Positions 1,978 through 32,590 of a stretch of 35,345 nt of DNA are shown here, piece by piece. Below the pieces are notes generated by a model. That model was not told the DNA's origin. It did no database searches and was given only the letters and a program-made list of their open reading frames with translations. The stretch's first letter is position 1. Every line of letters starts with the position of its first letter. Source of the stretch: Nitrospirota bacterium (GTDB lineage Bacteria > Nitrospirota > UBA9217); contig JAGVOT010000039.1 of NCBI GenBank assembly GCA_020052615.1, positions 1-35,345 on the forward strand, in the 5' to 3' direction. A program made the position numbers and the translations under genes.

Positions 1978-2006
1978 TTGACACACCACAGGCCATAAAA
2001 TATACT
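1978..2006 (+). promoter_or_regulatory. Sigma70-like promoter upstream of the first low-GC island
   Basis: TTGACA at 1978-1983 and TATACT at 2001-2006 are separated by exactly 17 bp, 11 of 12 consensus bases. Transcription would start near 2013 and read into the island genes from 2156. If the island is a cassette array, this promoter is placed as a cassette promoter (Pc) would be. The stretch 1861-2155 holds no convincing gene, only this promoter, the palindrome at 1938 and the inverted repeats at 2047-2132. Confidence 0.55.
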
Positions 2007-2046
2007 CGTTTTCACAAAGAAAGAGTCCCAGGCATCATTCTTGCTA

Positions 2047-2132
2047 AACTGGTAAAGAAAGAAAATCCGTGCTTTACTATGGGTCTGGTTTTTAGGTGTT
2101 TACTATCCCCCATAGTCAACTACTAGTTGATT
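2047..2132 (+). other. Possible left cassette boundary / attC-like fold
   Basis: AACTGGTA (2047-2054) can pair with TACTAGTT (2121-2128) with one G-T wobble, and inside it ACTATGGG (2076-2083) pairs perfectly with CCCATAGT (2109-2116). The right arm ends in GTTGATT (2126-2132), like the GTTRAT-type boxes at other island boundaries. The first island gene starts 24 bases later. The left spacer is much longer than the right, which is unusual for attC, so the call is weak. Confidence 0.3.
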
Positions 2133-2155
2133 CGGATAAAATCAATGGAGAATCT

Positions 2156-3040
2156 ATGATTCGCATTATCATCATGATCGTCTTATTATTGACCCTGCCG
2201 ATGATAGCTTATTCACAAGATCCAGTCCCAACTCCAAGCAAAGTTGGTCAGCCACCACAACAACAACCCAACAAAATAAAGACTGAATCCCCAAATGGCC
2301 CACGCGGTACTAAGGATTCTCCTGTTTTTATCGAGACACTTGAGAGACAGGTGGATAGAGACGATAAAGTTGAAGAGCGTAAATACCGCGAAAATGAAAC
2401 GTCGATCAATAAGCGCCTCGTATTCTTCACTGGTTTGATGCTCCTTGTTGCCCTCGGTCAGGCCGCTCTCTTTTTCTATCAATTGCGTCTGATGCGAAAA
2501 ACCATGATTGATACAGAAAAAGCTGCGTCCGCTGCTCAAAAAAGTGCCGAAGTTGCCGAGAAAACCGTTGAAATTATGTCTGATACGGCTCAAAGACAAT
2601 TGCGGGCGTATATCTTCGTTAAAACCGACGACAAGTCTGTGGTTCTTGATAGCGATAGCGTACTGACCGTTACCACCATCGTAAAGAACTTCGGCCAGAC
2701 CCCTGCGCACAATATCATAACAAGCCAACACATTGGCACCTACGTTCTCCCGATAAGTCCTGATAACCCCCTCGACAATCTTTCCTTCGCTGATAATTCC
2801 TCTACATCGGCTCTTGCGCCTGGAGAGGTCACTTACATAAGAAATAACCCCCAAAAACTTACCGCAAGGCTCATTGCTGATATTGAATCTGGCGTTGTCG
2901 CCCTTTTTGTTCTCGGCGAAATTAAGTACTACGATTCCTTCGGTACGCCACAGAGTACCAAATACCGCATGTTTTCCACTGGCGAGGTCTTCATTCGCAA
3001 GGGTCTCACATATTATTATGACGGCAATGAGGCAACCTGA
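2156..3040 (+). CDS. Exported, membrane-anchored hypothetical protein with coiled coil
   Basis: A 294-residue protein. The chosen ATG follows GGAG at 2147-2150 and begins a clear signal peptide (MIRIIIMIVLLLTLPMIAYS). In order: signal peptide, a Pro/Gln-rich linker of about 35 residues, a charged segment, a transmembrane helix (LVFFTGLMLLVALGQAALFFYQL), an Ala/Lys-rich coiled coil (EKAASAAQKSAEVAEKTVE), then a soluble beta-rich domain starting 'RQLRAYIFV' with 'VKNFGQTPAHNI'. The last two phrases recur in uncharacterised anchored proteins of many environmental bacteria. Codon use and GC are clearly lower than in the flanking genes, which suggests transfer. It lies between two attC-like boundaries, so it could be a cassette gene. 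Function unknown. Confidence 0.75.
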   Translation: MIRIIIMIVLLLTLPMIAYSQDPVPTPSKVGQPPQQQPNKIKTESPNGPRGTKDSPVFIETLERQVDRDDKVEERKYRENETSINKRLVFFTGLMLLVALGQAALFFYQLRLMRKTMIDTEKAASAAQKSAEVAEKTVEIMSDTAQRQLRAYIFVKTDDKSVVLDSDSVLTVTTIVKNFGQTPAHNIITSQHIGTYVLPISPDNPLDNLSFADNSSTSALAPGEVTYIRNNPQKLTARLIADIESGVVALFVLGEIKYYDSFGTPQSTKYRMFSTGEVFIRKGLTYYYDGNEAT

Positions 3041-3065
3041 TATAAGTATGTAGATTAAACGCATA

Positions 3066-3117
3066 TTTCAACCAGAAGATCGAGCCCCACGGAACGGGGC
3101 TCATCTTCGCGTTAATC
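3066..3117 (+). other. attC-like recombination site (best-formed of the set)
   Basis: AAC (3070-3072) and GTT (3111-3113) enclose a nearly perfect stem: GAAGAT pairs with ATCTTC and GAGCCCC with GGGGCTC, around a 7-base loop, with a single unpaired C at 3081 on the left arm. AAC...GTT ends, short mismatched spacers and one extrahelical base on one arm are the architecture of an integron attC. The right end reads GTTAATC. No T-tract follows, which argues against an intrinsic terminator. It lies 26 bases after one gene and about 50 before the next. Confidence 0.55.
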
Positions 3118-3162
3118 AGATAAACCCATGCATAGCCTATGTTGTTTGCCACGGAGTGAAGC

Positions 3163-3948
3163 TTGTCTAGCACAATGAAACGGTTCAAGACCAACGCAAA
3201 CGGAGAGATTCCCGCTGGGTGTAAGCTTGATGCTAACGCAGTTTATGCGCTCGTTCGAGATATGCCCCCTGCTGCCAGTACTTTTAGCGACAAGCAACAA
3301 CTTATCGATTGGATAAATAACTGCATACTTGGCGATCTTCGAACGCTTCGTTTTGGAATTCAGACGTACTTGGCTGACTCAAACCGAGACGTAAAAAATG
3401 GGTTGGGAGGCGGAAACTTCTTACTGGCTTCCGGCTGTTGTTTAGCGCTTGAATACGTAGCTCGTATATTCAACGGGGGCAATAATGCTGAAGTCAATGT
3501 TAAACGTTATACTGAGAAATTCCTTAAGCCAATAAACAATAAGTATGCCGACGTCAGCGGTCTAATGTGGAAAGTATTCAGGAACGGGCTAGTCCACGGC
3601 TCGTGGCCGCAGAGTATTGAGATTGAAGCGGAAAATGGACAAAAAATCCGCGTCGGAGTCGGAGTGGAACCATCTGATCCTCACCTCGCTCCTGAACGGA
3701 AGTGGTCGGGACCCTCCCTTGCCCTCAATGCTATTACCTTTATGGAAGATCTGGAAGCATCTGTTGAACGAGGCTTTGCACAATGGATTCTTGACACTAC
3801 CGATCCTGTACTGGAGCGAGGCGCGCCTCGCCTCCTGATCTTGCACAAAGATGATCAGGTGCAGCTAGAGGTCCAGCGAGTCTTGGAGTGGAATAGCAGC
3901 AGTGCCGACCCATCTGGTGGCAAATCCGACGTGGCCTCGGCGCGTTGA
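3163..3948 (+). CDS. Hypothetical protein in low-GC island
   Basis: A 261-residue protein, no family recognised. TTG at 3163 is preferred because GGAG at 3153-3156 lies 6 bases upstream; ATG at 3175 (MKRFKTNANGEIP) is the alternative. It is predicted soluble, mostly helical, with an 'RTLRFGIQTYLADS' segment and a Gly-rich 'GLGGGNFLLASGCCLALEY'. A later 'DVSGLMWKVFRNGLVHGSWPQ' resembles HEPN-like or nuclease-associated 'R.GLvHg' helices, but this is only a resemblance. The last about 15 codons (SSSADPSGGKSDVASAR) run into a possible recombination site, so the native C-terminus may have been altered. GC and codon use match the neighbouring island genes. Confidence 0.65.
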   Translation: MSSTMKRFKTNANGEIPAGCKLDANAVYALVRDMPPAASTFSDKQQLIDWINNCILGDLRTLRFGIQTYLADSNRDVKNGLGGGNFLLASGCCLALEYVARIFNGGNNAEVNVKRYTEKFLKPINNKYADVSGLMWKVFRNGLVHGSWPQSIEIEAENGQKIRVGVGVEPSDPHLAPERKWSGPSLALNAITFMEDLEASVERGFAQWILDTTDPVLERGAPRLLILHKDDQVQLEVQRVLEWNSSSADPSGGKSDVASAR

Positions 3949-3950
3949 TC
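3902..3950 (+). other. Weak attC-like site overlapping a gene end
   Basis: GTGCCGA (3902-3908) pairs with TCGGCGC (3937-3943), directly followed by GTTGATC (3944-3950), which matches boundary boxes elsewhere. The left AAC is not present (AAT at best) and the inside is only loosely paired. The TGA of the preceding gene is inside the GTTGATC box. The next gene starts 26 bases on, as expected for a cassette. Confidence 0.25.
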
Positions 3951-3975
3951 TACACCAAGCTTTTGATCGCTAAAT

Positions 3976-4407
3976 ATGAACATTCAATATCTCCAAATTA
4001 AAAGACCCTACAGCTTTACCTCACCATTTAAAGGAGCGGAATTTGCTGCTCTTATCTATATCGCTGATGCTAATATTTCGATTAGAGAACAAGAAGTCCT
4101 AAGCGATCAAATTGTGATTTCCGGCTGCCGCTATGCTGTCTGCGCAGGACTTAACTGCTCATCTTGGGATAATTCGATTGATATGGCGGATATTAAGCGT
4201 AATGGTGGCGAGGTCAGTGATGAAAATCTCGTAATGACCACATGGCACGATAACGAAACGCTGGAAGATATCGCCTTCTTCTTTTTGAACAATACTAGCT
4301 TTGGTAGTTTTATTGCGGACCGTCTGGCGGTTCTTGTTATCGGTGCCAACGAATCAATTCTCAACGATATCCAAAATGAAATAAACAAGCGGTTAACGGC
4401 CAACTGA
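3976..4407 (+). CDS. Hypothetical protein in low-GC island
   Basis: A 143-residue soluble protein without recognised motifs. Its C-terminal half (VMTTWHDNETLEDIAFFFLNNTSF, then RLAVLVIGANE) resembles small uncharacterised proteins found singly in environmental genomes. It begins with ATG and no strong ribosome binding site. It starts shortly after a possible boundary box (GTTGATC at 3944) and ends 7 bases before the attC-like site's AAC end at 4415, the compact layout of a gene cassette. Low GC compared with the flanking gspF gene. Function unknown. Confidence 0.65.
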   Translation: MNIQYLQIKRPYSFTSPFKGAEFAALIYIADANISIREQEVLSDQIVISGCRYAVCAGLNCSSWDNSIDMADIKRNGGEVSDENLVMTTWHDNETLEDIAFFFLNNTSFGSFIADRLAVLVIGANESILNDIQNEINKRLTAN

Positions 4408-4410
4408 CAA

Positions 4411-4469
4411 GACCAACCTGGCGCTCGACAGCGACGCGCCAAAGTCGGCGCGTGACGCGCGGGTTCCCC
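4411..4469 (+). other. attC-like site closing the first low-GC island
   Basis: AAC at 4415-4417 and GTT at 4463-4465 frame an imperfect palindrome. Outer AACC pairs with GGTT and the inner ACGCGCC (4434-4440) with GGCGCGT (4447-4453). It is clearly similar to the site at 23499-23559: both share AACnnGGCGC, GCGACGCGCCA, GGCGCGTGAC and end GTTCCCC. High-GC, typical host sequence begins immediately after. Confidence 0.5.
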
Positions 4470-4516
4470 ATCCCTTCATTGACTTCCCGTTCTTTTCTCT
4501 GTATTATTCAGTGCGT

Positions 4517-5707
4517 ATGCCCCTTTTTACCTATAAAGCCGTTCGTGAGGATGGGACCGCGATTACCGACGAGTTGACGGCGGCGAACTCCTCGGAGGTG
4601 CGCCAGGCCCTGGAAGCAAGGGGGTACCTGGTGCTCGACGTCAGGACAAAGCGGGCGGGCATCGGGGGATCCGGCGCGAGCCAGAAGGACTTCCTGATCT
4701 TCAACCAGGAGTTCATGACGCTCGTCAAGGCTGGGCTCCCCATCGTGCAGGCCCTCGAGATCCTTCACAAGCGCATGGTAAAGCCCGGATACCGTACGAC
4801 CCTGGGAAGCATCATCGAAGCCGTCAAGGGCGGCACCGCCCTGTCGGACGCCATGGCGTCCCATCCCGCCTTTTTCCCGCCCCTCTACACGGCGACCGTG
4901 CGGGCAGGCGAGCAGAGCGGCGCCCTGGTGGACGTGCTGAAGCGGTTCATTGATTATCAGAAGCGGATGCTGACGGTCCGGCGCAAGCTCGTCACCGCCC
5001 TGGCCTATCCCGCGTTCCTGGTCCTGGCGCTCGTGGGTGTGATGGCGCTCTTCTTCCTCTATATCATCCCCAACTTCACCCAGATGTACAGTGACCAGTC
5101 CGGCTCCCTGCCCTTCCTGACGTCGCTGCTCATCAGCTTTACGGACATCGTTTCAAAAGGCGCGCCGGTCATTGCCGTGGCCCTGGTCGCCGGGGGGATC
5201 AGCCTGTACCTCGGATACCGGAGCGATACGGGCCGCAAGGCGCTGGACACGATGCTGCTCCGGACCCCGCTGGTGCGGACGCTCATCATCCAGTACATCA
5301 TGGCCCAGCTCACCCGCACCCTGGCGACGGTGCTGCGGGGCGGCATCCCGCTGGTGCAGGCCATGGACACCACGGCCGGGGTCATCGGCAACCGCGTCAT
5401 CGCCCGGCGGCTTCTGGAAAGCCGGGAGCTCCTGACCGAGGGCGTGAGCCTTGCCGACGCCATGGAGCGGACGAAGCTCGCCCCGGACATGACGGTCCGG
5501 ATGATCGAGGTGGGAGAATCCTCCGGAGACCTTCCGCAGATGCTGGAGGACGTCGCCGATTTTTACGAGCAGGAAGTGGAGAACCGGCTCACCGTGCTCA
5601 CCACCATGATCGAGCCGGTGCTCATGCTGACCATGGGCATCGTGATCGCGTTCATCGTTGTGGCGCTGTACCTTCCGATATTCGAAATGGGGGCGAGACT
5701 GAAATGA
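4517..5707 (+). CDS. gspF: Type II secretion / type IV pilus inner-membrane platform protein (GspF/PilC)
   Basis: A 396-residue polytopic platform protein on which the GspE/PilB ATPase works to extrude pseudopilus or pilus subunits. The start MPLFTYKAVREDG is the family's canonical N-terminus; a GTG two codons earlier is less likely. Two T2SSF domains are visible (about residues 65-190 and 265-390). Each carries the F..l..ll.aG.pl...l pattern ('QEFMTLVKAGLPIVQALEIL' and 'TRTLATVLRGGIPLVQAMD') and the G...L...l phrase. Three hydrophobic segments lie near 165-190, 215-235 and at the C-terminus (MIEPVLMLTMGIVIAF). Its TGA overlaps the gspE ATG. It could belong to a pilus, a T2SS or a specialised pseudopilus; the neighbours favour a dedicated small system. 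Confidence 0.93.
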   Translation: MPLFTYKAVREDGTAITDELTAANSSEVRQALEARGYLVLDVRTKRAGIGGSGASQKDFLIFNQEFMTLVKAGLPIVQALEILHKRMVKPGYRTTLGSIIEAVKGGTALSDAMASHPAFFPPLYTATVRAGEQSGALVDVLKRFIDYQKRMLTVRRKLVTALAYPAFLVLALVGVMALFFLYIIPNFTQMYSDQSGSLPFLTSLLISFTDIVSKGAPVIAVALVAGGISLYLGYRSDTGRKALDTMLLRTPLVRTLIIQYIMAQLTRTLATVLRGGIPLVQAMDTTAGVIGNRVIARRLLESRELLTEGVSLADAMERTKLAPDMTVRMIEVGESSGDLPQMLEDVADFYEQEVENRLTVLTTMIEPVLMLTMGIVIAFIVVALYLPIFEMGARLK

Positions 5708-21937: not shown

Positions 21938-22046
21938 CAGCATGGACTAAGCGTGCACAGGACCTGCTTCCTGAAGTAGATGTTTGTATATAAATGTAGA
22001 TGCAGGCTTCCGTCCCATCAATAACTGGTTAACCCCGAGAAAAGAT

Positions 22047-22523
22047 ATGGCAAAAGAAACATTTATCGCAAGCACTTCTCCCTTCAAAATATTTAGCGCG
22101 TTATTTGCGCTGTGCGCCATCCTATTGTTGCTGAAGTATTATGTCGGATGGTTTGTCTATCCGCTCGCATTCATCTGTATTGGTCTGGCATACCTTCTCT
22201 GGAAAATATCCCCACCGATAATCGAAATAGATGAATATGGAATAAGAAGACTTCAACACGGTAGCTCATTGGCCGGAGCTATGTCGCGGCTTCTGCTACC
22301 CGATATCGGGTGCGAATGGGTTTGGGTAAACTCGATTACAACGACACGGCTCAATGCCGGATCCTTTGTAACTTCGATCTCGGTTTCTGACGAAATGCCA
22401 AACAAACCGAAATATCGAGTGACAATTGAATCATCAATTTACAAGAATTACGTTGCCATCCTGAAAGCGATAAAAGCCAAAGCAGTGAAAGCCAACTTCG
22501 ATGAAACGACCGAATCGATATAA
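22047..22523 (+). CDS. Small membrane protein, possible PH-like domain, in second low-GC island
   Basis: A 158-residue protein. The ATG at 22047 follows GAGAAAAG and lies 19 bases after GTTAACC (22028-22034), a candidate cassette start. A TTG at 21984 would add 21 codons before the boundary and is less likely. Two hydrophobic helices come first (FKIFSALFALCAILLLLKYY and WFVYPLAFICIGLAYLLW). A cytoplasmic domain starting 'PPIIEIDEYGIRRL' with 'CEWVWVNSITTTRL' follows, like bacterial PH-like domains where an aromatic patch precedes an I-T strand. GC and codon use are much lower than in the upstream fabZ-like gene. Function unknown. Confidence 0.7.
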   Translation: MAKETFIASTSPFKIFSALFALCAILLLLKYYVGWFVYPLAFICIGLAYLLWKISPPIIEIDEYGIRRLQHGSSLAGAMSRLLLPDIGCEWVWVNSITTTRLNAGSFVTSISVSDEMPNKPKYRVTIESSIYKNYVAILKAIKAKAVKANFDETTESI

Positions 22524-22531
22524 AAGGTGAC

Positions 22532-22622
22532 GTTGATATTCGTCCTGTCAGACTTTATTATTTATGGCTTTTTGTATTCACCGTCATCGCAGCACTTTTA
22601 CATACATATTTCAGAAAAGGCT
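22532..22622 (+). other. Gene remnant or very small membrane peptide between cassette-type borders
   Basis: GTTGATA (22532-22538), a match to other boundary boxes, starts a stretch of about 90 bases open in one frame: VDIRPVRLYYLWLFVFTVIA, then ALLHTYFRKG and stop. It reads as the C-terminal transmembrane helix of a protein but has no good start codon. It could be a truncated cassette whose 5' part was lost, or a gene-less cassette. Confidence 0.25.
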
Positions 22623-22676
22623 AACCAGCGCGTCGAGTGAGTCGCGAAAGCCTCGCTCCTCACGCGCGCGTTGATA
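22619..22676 (+). other. attC-like recombination site
   Basis: AAC (22623-22625) and GTT (22670-22672) enclose GCGCG/CGCGC and inner GTGAG/CTCAC stems separated by unpaired spacers, the layout of an attC. The right box reads GTTGATA. The next ATG (22682) lies 10 bases after the box, the usual tight spacing of a gene cassette. Confidence 0.5.
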
Positions 22677-22681
22677 GCGAT

Positions 22682-22924
22682 ATGCCAGAGAAACATTACA
22701 TAACCTCGATCATTTCAGCCCCGGTCGGCTTGGCCCTATTGATATGGCGGAAGCGTTTTGCCGCTGCTGTCGTCAGAGGGCAAAATAGAATCTGGGGTTT
22801 TCATTTGGGTCAGCGGGAAGAGAAGATCAGCCTTTTCATGGCAGTCCTCACTGGCATCGGTTTCCTGACAATCGGCATCCTTGGCCTCATTGGTTTCATC
22901 CATTGGAAACCAGGCACTTTCTGA
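22682..22924 (+). CDS. Small membrane protein in cassette-like unit
   Basis: An 80-residue protein (MPEKHYITSIISAPVG...). Two hydrophobic segments: ITSIISAPVGLALLIW and, at the C-terminus, LFMAVLTGIGFLTIGILGLIGFIHW, separated by a basic loop (RKRFAAAVVRGQNRIWGF) expected to be cytoplasmic. The frame stays open into the upstream attC-like site (from GTG 22637), but the ATG just downstream of the site is preferred. No family recognised. Low GC, compact flanks. Confidence 0.6.
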   Translation: MPEKHYITSIISAPVGLALLIWRKRFAAAVVRGQNRIWGFHLGQREEKISLFMAVLTGIGFLTIGILGLIGFIHWKPGTF

Positions 22925-22973
22925 TGAAGAATAGCTACTATCTCAAAAAATAGTAGACCTGCCCCTGTTAATA
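22904..22973 (+). other. Possible attC-like site
   Basis: AAC (22908-22910) and GTT (22967-22969) can pair, with AGG/CCT next to them and an inner 7-bp stem CTACTAT (22935-22941) / ATAGTAG (22950-22956). The right end reads GTTAATA, like the other boundary boxes. The stop codon of the preceding gene lies inside it. Spacers are long, so weaker than the other sites. Confidence 0.3.
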
Positions 22974-23005
22974 ATGATAAAATATTTTCAGTGGAGGATA
23001 TAATC

Positions 23006-23209
23006 ATGGGAAGTAAAGTTGAAGCATTGGAAAACGAGATTAAGGACCTTTCTCGCGATGAGCTGGCTTCTTTCCGGAATTGGTTCGTGAAATTCGACGC
23101 CGCCGAATGGGACGGTCAGATCGAAAATGATATTAAAGCCGGAAAGCTCGATCAGTTAGCAGCAAAAGCACTCGCCGCGCACAAACGTAGGAAGAGCCGG
23201 GAACTTTGA
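23006..23209 (+). CDS. Antitoxin of a RelE/ParE-type toxin-antitoxin pair
   Basis: A 67-residue acidic-to-basic helical protein. ATG at 23006 has a perfect GGAGG 8 bases upstream (22993-22997); a GTG at 22991 overlaps that site and is rejected. The sequence (KVEALENEIKDLSRDELASFRNWFVKFDAAEWD, then AGKLDQLAAKALAAHKRRKS) matches small antitoxins found directly before RelE/ParE-like toxins. The C-terminal half would wrap the toxin. Its stop overlaps the toxin's TTG start (TTGA), so translation is coupled. Located in the second low-GC island, between attC-like sites. Confidence 0.8.
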   Translation: MGSKVEALENEIKDLSRDELASFRNWFVKFDAAEWDGQIENDIKAGKLDQLAAKALAAHKRRKSREL

Positions 23210-23460
23210 AACATTATGCCTCACCGGATTTCTGGACATGCTTTGAAGTTCTCCCCGATCCTGTCAAAGAGCTTGCACGCAAAAGCTACGAACTTTTGAA
23301 AGAAAATCCTCATCATCCTTCTCTCCATTTAAAACAAGTCAAAACTTACAGGTCAGTTCGTATCGGCCTTCATTACCGTGCTCTGGGCGTCAACGTCGAA
23401 GATGGCATTCTCTGGTTTTGGATCGGCACGCACACGGATTATGATAAGCTGCTTCGTTAA
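23206..23460 (+). CDS. RelE/ParE-family toxin
   Basis: An 84-residue protein starting with TTG in a TTGA overlap with the antitoxin. It has the compact RelE/ParE fold: 'SPDFWTCFEVLPDPVKELARKSYELLKENPHHPSLHLKQVKTY', then 'SVRIGLHYRALGVNVEDGILWFWIGTHTDYDKLL'. The G-x-HYRALG and W-I-GTH-x-YD strands are typical of the subgroup paired with this antitoxin. Expected to be an mRNA interferase or gyrase poison; which cannot be told here. It ends about 40 bases before an attC-like site. Toxin-antitoxin pairs are common stabilisers of cassette arrays. Confidence 0.85.
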   Translation: MKHYASPDFWTCFEVLPDPVKELARKSYELLKENPHHPSLHLKQVKTYRSVRIGLHYRALGVNVEDGILWFWIGTHTDYDKLLR

Positions 23461-23498
23461 GTGTTATTGGCCTTGCTCGTAATAAAGCAAAAAGAGAA

Positions 23499-23559
23499 TT
23501 TCAACAAGGCGCGTCCACGGCGACGCGCCAGAAGGCGGCGCGTGACCGCCGCGTTCCCC
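23499..23559 (+). other. attC-like site closing the second low-GC island
   Basis: AAC (23503-23505) to GTT (23553-23555), with GGCG arms outside and GCGCC/GGCGC-type arms inside. It is a near copy of the site at 4411-4469 and also ends GTTCCCC. Sequence beyond it is again host-like, with the terminator of the next minus-strand gene. Confidence 0.5.
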
Positions 23560-23582
23560 CTCATAAGCCAACCGGAATAAAA

Positions 23583-32127: not shown

Positions 32128-32590
32128 ACACGGAGAAGGCGGATTTGAAAGATGATAAGGTCGGATAACAAATTACTTCATTCTGAGATTACAGACAAGA
32201 TCATCTCCTGCGCATATGACGTGTATAACCAGCTGGGATTTGGTTTTTCAGAAAAGGTCTACGAAAATGCCATGATGATCAAAACTGCCCAAAGGAATCT
32301 AAAGGCCGTACAACAGGCGCCTATCAGTGTGTATTTTGAATCGAAATTGGTCGGTGAATACTTTGCTGATATTTTCATAGAGGACAAAGTGCTTGTCGAA
32401 TTGAAGGCTGTTTCTATCCTGTCGAAAGCGCATGAGGCACAACTTATGAATTATCTTAAAGCTACAGGCATTAAAGTAGGCCTTCTTATTAACTTTGGTG
32501 ACAAATTGAAAATAGTTCGGCGTGTTTTTTAAATAGTGCACTATCCGCCGTTATCAGGACTTTGACCCGTGAAAATCCGTGGCAAAGGTT
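32128..32590 (+). repeat. Inverted-repeat element carrying a GxxExxY gene, between nuoF and nuoG
   Basis: Inner ends TGATAAGGTCGGAT (32153-32166) and ATCCGCCGTTATCA (32543-32556) pair at 12 of 14. They are the same ends as in the shorter spacer elements. Outside them lie GACACGGA on the left and TTTGACCCGTG...CCGTGGCAAAGG on the right, related to the outer arms of the other copies. The GxxExxY gene starts inside the left arm. The right end AAAGG is the likely ribosome binding site of nuoG. Confidence 0.65.
32152..32532 (+). CDS. GxxExxY (PDDEXK-like) protein
   Basis: A 126-residue protein of the GxxExxY family. The name motif is GFSEKVY, with 'IISCAYDVYNQLGFG' before it. A PDDEXK-like core is visible: 'YFADIFIEDKVLVELKAVSILSKAHEAQLMNYLKATGIKVGLLINFG', where D (ADIF), E and K (VELKAV) match the nuclease triad. 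The family has no demonstrated activity that I know of; nuclease or nucleic acid binding is inferred from the fold. The ORF starts inside an inverted-repeat arm between two complex I genes, and its GC is far lower than nuoF/nuoG, so it is an insertion. It is in frame order with, but unrelated to, complex I. Confidence 0.88.
   Translation: MIRSDNKLLHSEITDKIISCAYDVYNQLGFGFSEKVYENAMMIKTAQRNLKAVQQAPISVYFESKLVGEYFADIFIEDKVLVELKAVSILSKAHEAQLMNYLKATGIKVGLLINFGDKLKIVRRVF

Follow-up and report, generated by a model that had tools for sequence, protein, structure and literature searches.

An integrase-less two-cassette array behind an attI-like leader in a Nitrospirota genome

What kind of element is a block of low-GC genes that is laid out like integron cassettes on a contig with no integron integrase? 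The question is raised by contig C54 of the 3.99 Mb draft genome of Nitrospirota bacterium, which, at its full length of 35,345 bases, is the window analysed here; to our knowledge, few integrons have been described in Nitrospirota. A previous sequence-only reading had marked 2126-4465 as a low-GC block of three one-strand genes of unknown function, possibly a CALIN-like array. The GC content of the block (island 1, 2126-4463) is indeed 0.466 as against an average of 0.598 in the remaining window, well beyond the spread of same-length stretches outside islands 1 and 2 (standard deviation 0.023, minimum 0.559). The three plus-strand open reading frames (ORFs) are as described, except that 3976-4407 belongs to DUF7684, which is a named family of unknown function. 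The AAC...GTT imperfect palindromes seen behind genes are present at 3066-3117 and 4411-4469, and high-GC gspF starts right after the last site, in agreement with the statement that the host resumes directly there. All genomes compared are draft assemblies, and the relatives sampled are Nitrospirota metagenome bins, including Hainich isolates labelled Nitrospiria. The features of island 1 are as follows.

1978-2006, plus strand: promoter-like site TTGACA-N17-TATACT, sigma70-like (11/12 match), candidate Pc
2031-2126, plus strand: attI-like leader; match to leader model R2 at 2031-2131, E 4.8e-8; compensatory changes across 34 leaders
2127-3111, plus strand: cassette 1, from crossover G2126|TT to G3111|TT, limits set by the leader end and the attC match
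2156-3040, plus strand: ORF, 294 aa, without Pfam or PADLOC family
3063-3118, minus strand (bottom strand modelled): attC 1; R1 26.8 bits, E 7.2e-6
3112-4463, plus strand: cassette 2, two genes, no attC between its two ORFs
3175-3948, plus strand: ORF, 257 aa, without family
3976-4407, plus strand: ORF, 143 aa, DUF7684; Pfam PF24733, E 5.4e-31
4408-4470, minus strand: attC 2, terminal; R1 42.2 bits, E 1.1e-10
4511-5707, plus strand: host gene for type II secretion/pilus assembly protein F (gspF); PF00482, E 2.5e-60

The attC covariance model R1 was built from 10 aligned sites, all of which lie outside the window, and the bulged bases of its bottom-strand consensus are one-sided, as in attC. 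The sequence-only reading had made its case depend on attC matches at four named sites. A window search with R1, run with the filters off, gave exactly these four (E 7e-6 to 6e-19), so that both palindromes of island 1 and both of island 2 are attC by a model blind to them. This shows that the sites are attC in sequence; as attC, they would be recognised and cut by an integron integrase. Rfam gave no relevant match at the island sites. The top-strand box of attC 1 is GTTAATC at 3111-3117, its extrahelical bases number n=1, and its single-stranded DNA fold has a z of -5.1. Attachment site attC 2 has its crossover at G4463|TTCCCC, and since host sequence is expected past the G at the right end of an array, the GTTCCCC end of this site is host DNA after its G, from 4464. 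A GTTRATY box had been reported in every gap. Those at 2126 and 3111 do mark crossovers, and the one at 3944 is a chance occurrence: such boxes number 14 on both strands of the window, neither attC model R1 nor R3 matches at 3944, no upstream AAC partner with a matching arm is found (best 6/11), and the fold is not above shuffles (z +0.68). A third cassette boundary near 3944 is therefore rejected, and so island 1 has two cassettes rather than three, the second with two genes. Island 1 is a genuine two-cassette integron array without its own integrase.

A CALIN is defined in IntegronFinder 2, according to the parts of PMC9024848 used here, as at least two attC with no intI nearby. The two attC of island 1 lie close together (3063-3118 and 4408-4470), and no intI is present on the 35,345-base contig, as had been stated. 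The left-flank genes are the same in the relative G001, and one is also found in G002; the missing intI is therefore not merely past the contig end. A complete integron, with intI adjoining attI and an array, is not what is found at this locus, the nearest intI being on other contigs. The search for intI elsewhere in the genome, which had been recommended, revealed an intact copy and broken ones. Contig C74 encodes the sole intact integron integrase of the genome (442 aa), together with a two-cassette array whose attCs are of the same kind as those of the other arrays. The copies on C101 and C53 are frameshifted, and the end of C34 bears a 53-aa fragment.

To the left of the array on C2 (L111:5567-5635) there is a 23-aa C-terminal intI remnant. 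The C2 array is an integron caught after loss of its integrase, and some platforms are clearly decayed integrons. The integron integrases of the family are about 440-500 aa long (L009:251-1579; relatives L101-L106), their N-terminal part far exceeding the 315-position TIGR02249 model. A GTGAACGTTCGTTCAC-like palindrome (GAACN4GTTC), which resembles one type of LexA box, lies upstream of several intI genes (L010, L011, L102, L106), and C2 retains a decayed version of it; this suggests SOS control of several intI genes.

A search of the whole genome with R1 gives at least 30 attCs on 18 contigs, in groups of mostly one or two; 10 of the 30 are the training sites of R1. A short attC core pattern occurs at 11 places on 10 contigs, the reversed control giving none. 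R1-type attCs are present in 10/10 family genomes searched and in 0/5 genomes of other families. Wherever the last attC is followed by host DNA, what comes beyond the terminal G|TT differs between loci, as expected if it is part of the insertion site. Contig C75 carries a lone attC (L114:8135-8198) between two host genes with no cassette gene adjoining, and a low-GC gene of the PDDEXK_3 nuclease family lies at 32152-32532 of the window with no attC near.

Comparison of the left edges of arrays revealed a common sequence just before the first cassette. In the window, this leader is about 95 nucleotides long (2031-2126) and consists of a GGCAT-N5-TTGCT head, a hairpin CTATGGG (2077-2083)/CCCATAG (2109-2115) and an end ..CTACTAG| at the crossover. 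With up to 3 mismatches allowed, the head pattern has four occurrences in the genome, all of them at arrays, and its reversed control has none. Model R2, built from eight short leaders excluding that of the window, finds eight leaders in the genome, the window leader included, and all eight are at the left ends of arrays. No array of the eight adjoins an intact intI, C2 having only its 23-aa remnant. In G001, cassettes with attC-type sites come after 13/13 leaders; some of these sites belong to a second attC subtype, and a few were read by eye. Among the Nitrospirota sampled, the leader is present in 10/14 family genomes and 0/104 others, and it was not found in plasmids or phages at blastn sensitivity. 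The leader is called attI-like since in G001:C15 and G002:C81 it separates intI from the array; the other intI copies, including that of C74, have a different attI region. The conservation stops at the left edge of the leader. Most leaders end in (C)ACTGG|TT, and that of the window, which is a long variant and does not fold better than its shuffles, ends in CTACTAG rather than CACTGG. The CALIN-like reading is thus supported by the four attC matches, by intI elsewhere in the genome and by other cassettes at the same place in relatives, and it is correct as far as it goes; it is incomplete, since an attI-like leader is common to many integrase-less arrays in one family.

In a set of 34 distinct leaders, 7/8 base pairs of the main hairpin (helix 4) show compensatory changes. 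The whole structure has 61 double-change cells as against 20.7 in shuffles (0/500 reach it), in an alignment that was fitted to the model and thereby favours a compensatory signal, and at most 17 in a slid-partner control. Some stems are wholly different, as in CTATCC/GGATAG, CTAGCCG/CGGCTAG and CTATGGG/CCCATAG. The slid controls and the differing stems argue for real selection on leader pairing.

The remark that integron cassettes have no promoter of their own overlooked the TTGACA-N17-TATACT promoter-like site (1978-2006) and the conserved leader at the left edge. A sigma70-like site (at least 10/12) lies 19-34 bases upstream of 9/33 leaders, as against 0.46 expected from shuffles. The boxes of a sigma54 promoter are GG (-24) and GC (-12), with a spacing of ten bases. 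They agree with the leader head GGCA-N6-TTGC, both GG and GC being present in 24/34 leaders including that of the window, and RpoN is encoded in the genome; a small GCA/TGC hairpin would yield the same conserved columns.

The place of island 1 upstream of gspF is occupied by other cassettes in relatives. There is an attC-like site with a BrnT/BrnA-like pair (by eye) in G001, two other cassettes with attCs in G002, and intI, cassettes and one attC in G005. The cassettes differ among G000, G001 and G002, none of those in relatives matches the window cassette proteins, and the latter were not found at orthologous loci of relatives. The gspF locus is a recurrent cassette site rather than the result of a one-off insertion. 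A search for relatives lacking 2126-4464, as had been proposed, thus gave other cassettes at the same place and no clean cassette-free copy of the site: in G003 the neighbouring upstream gene stands directly before gspF with no array, in sequence too diverged to place the junction. Four leader platforms can be matched in G001 by both host flanks (C110/C78, C50/C1, C36/C57 and C69/C18). Their flanks are mostly 79-93% identical in nucleotide sequence, and each pair has the leader in both species, intI in neither and no similarity in the sequence that separates the leader from the host flank; in C36/C57 the hairpin sequence differs too, with the structure kept. Since the flanks and the leader are kept and the cassettes are unrelated, the cassettes were exchanged after the species split without a local integrase, or intI was later lost in both lines. 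Action in trans would be the simpler account of the turnover than loss of intI in both lines. Alternatively, whole loci may have been exchanged by homologous recombination or transferred, or a local intI may have been lost after the turnover.

We estimate a probability of roughly 0.6 that island 1 is an integrase-less platform with a promoter region and an attI-like leader, forming part of a distributed integron. The platform would consist of the promoter region and a leader that bears the hairpin and has ..CTAG| as its end; two mobile cassettes would come next, transcribed from the promoter/leader side. Many such platforms would stand at fixed sites, and IntI encoded elsewhere, probably on C74, would load and unload them by acting in trans on the leader end. 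The leader may act as the attI core, as a regulatory structure of RNA or DNA, or as both, and the platforms may have descended from complete integrons after loss of intI. More tentatively, and with somewhat more doubt than belief, one integrase may serve about a dozen dedicated attI-like platforms that lack intI and are distributed along the chromosome, each with a promoter and a structured leader as landing site and regulatory 5' element; cassettes could then be loaded and expressed at many loci simultaneously.

It is unlikely, although less so than the other alternatives, that island 1 is a plain degraded integron, in which a complete integron upstream of gspF has lost intI, leaving leader and cassettes as inert remains, such degradation having been proposed for CALINs in general (PMC9024848, in the parts used). 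The intI and cassettes of G005 at the gspF locus, the two leaders that adjoin intI and the C-terminal intI remnant of C2 would agree with such decay, whereas the window locus has no trace of intI, the leader structure is maintained by compensatory change, and four intI-less leader platforms differ in cassettes between sister species, indicating that loading or replacement has continued.

It is improbable that IntI put the circular cassettes of island 1 into an ordinary chromosomal G|TT (attG) with no dedicated platform. It is established that cassettes can insert into attG (Loot et al. 2024, as cited in PMC12444791 and PMC12901181), junctions past the last attC vary by locus with only G|TT in common, and island 2 and other arrays are without the leader. 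However, the left junction of island 1 is not arbitrary host sequence, as it would be in attG insertion, but the leader common to seven other arrays and to intI-bearing integrons, and the loci are conserved between species. An attG origin, first considered for all the scattered arrays, was dropped for island 1 once the leader had been found. Island 2 has the following features.

22028-23553, plus strand: island 2, integrase-less array of two cassettes with attCs at 22616-22677 and 23496-23560
22616-22677, minus strand: attC; R1 42.9 bits, E 6.5e-11
23006-23460, plus strand: putative toxin-antitoxin pair, cassette 2; ParE-like toxin 23206-23460, PF24732, E 1e-7
23496-23560, minus strand: terminal attC; R1 68.4 bits, E 6.5e-19; crossover G23553|TTCCCC

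The attC at 22616-22677 is near-identical to an attC adjoining the C74 integrase, and the antitoxin is assigned by position only. Island 2 starts with ..ATAACTG|GTTAACC and has no R2 leader match, as is the case for about half of the arrays in the genome; by eye, its left edge is similar to the attI end found in several relatives that have intI. Island 2 may have arisen by insertion of the attG type, or it may be a different type of platform. An ordinary operon or acquired genomic island with merely attC-like hairpins, such as terminators, would explain the low GC, the unknown genes and one strongly folding hairpin, but has almost no probability left, being refuted by attC matches in window, genome and family (four model matches with E down to 6e-19, near-identical sites beside intI and none in five other-family genomes) and by hairpins with no T-run after them.

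As an integrase-less platform, island 1 resembles known systems in part. According to the sections of each source used, it is like a CALIN (PMC9024848) in being small and chromosomal, with two attC in one orientation about 1.3 kb apart on an intI-less contig, and differs in the conserved attI-like left leader at many orthologous loci with content varying between sister species. The Xanthomonas chromosomal integron with remote CALINs (PMC12444791) likewise has conserved intI-less array positions in a genus that also has intI, whereas here the arrays are numerous and very short, and the content varies at one locus; the parts of that source used report no leader in common. Cassette insertion at attG (Loot et al. 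2024, Nat Microbiol 9:228, as cited) likewise gives arrays outside attI, with crossover G|TT and a right-hand host sequence that varies; island 1 is set apart by having a conserved leader, and not an arbitrary site, at its left junction, whereas island 2 may itself be a case of attG insertion. In class 1 integrons, the attI1 leader, for which a riboswitch role was once claimed (Roth and Breaker 2013, cited in the review PMC8876359), is also conserved DNA from promoter to first cassette that is both recombination site and 5' leader; in the present leader, the hairpin sequence varies and the pairing is kept, pointing to selection on structure. What is new here is that integrase-less platforms with a common structured leader form a set across the family, the CALIN kind being already known.

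The usual view of CALINs is that they are dead integrons or the result of off-target insertion, and existing finders require intI or a minimum of two attC. Should cassettes continue to be exchanged at integrase-less platforms that have an attI-like leader of their own, a single array at a single place would no longer be a necessary feature of an integron. Since many arrays here have one attC, finders would miss much of such a distributed integron. The structured leader would be a specific DNA or RNA element.

No cassette protein matches PADLOC or NCBIfam above cut-off, and the DUF7684 gene has no plasmid matches. In the 257-aa ORF, FRNGLVHG resembles, by eye only, the RxxxxH of HEPN, and the predicted structure of this protein (mean pLDDT 43) is too poor to judge the HEPN reading. 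The cassette of G001:C78 (L213), on the platform equivalent to C110, encodes a TIR-like protein with VFYSWQSD by eye, and platforms may thus carry defence genes. In G001, C79 and C53 (L233, L094) have the same cassette start, GGCTCGCAAAGGACAGAAACC..., which is either one cassette at two platforms or an assembly overlap. In G009:C440 (L149), the leader is followed by a tyrosine recombinase gene of a non-intI kind, by eye. A protein near the C61 array (L124 cassette ORF) is 97% identical to one just upstream of the leader in G003:C66 (L144), in another genus, which suggests recent transfer.
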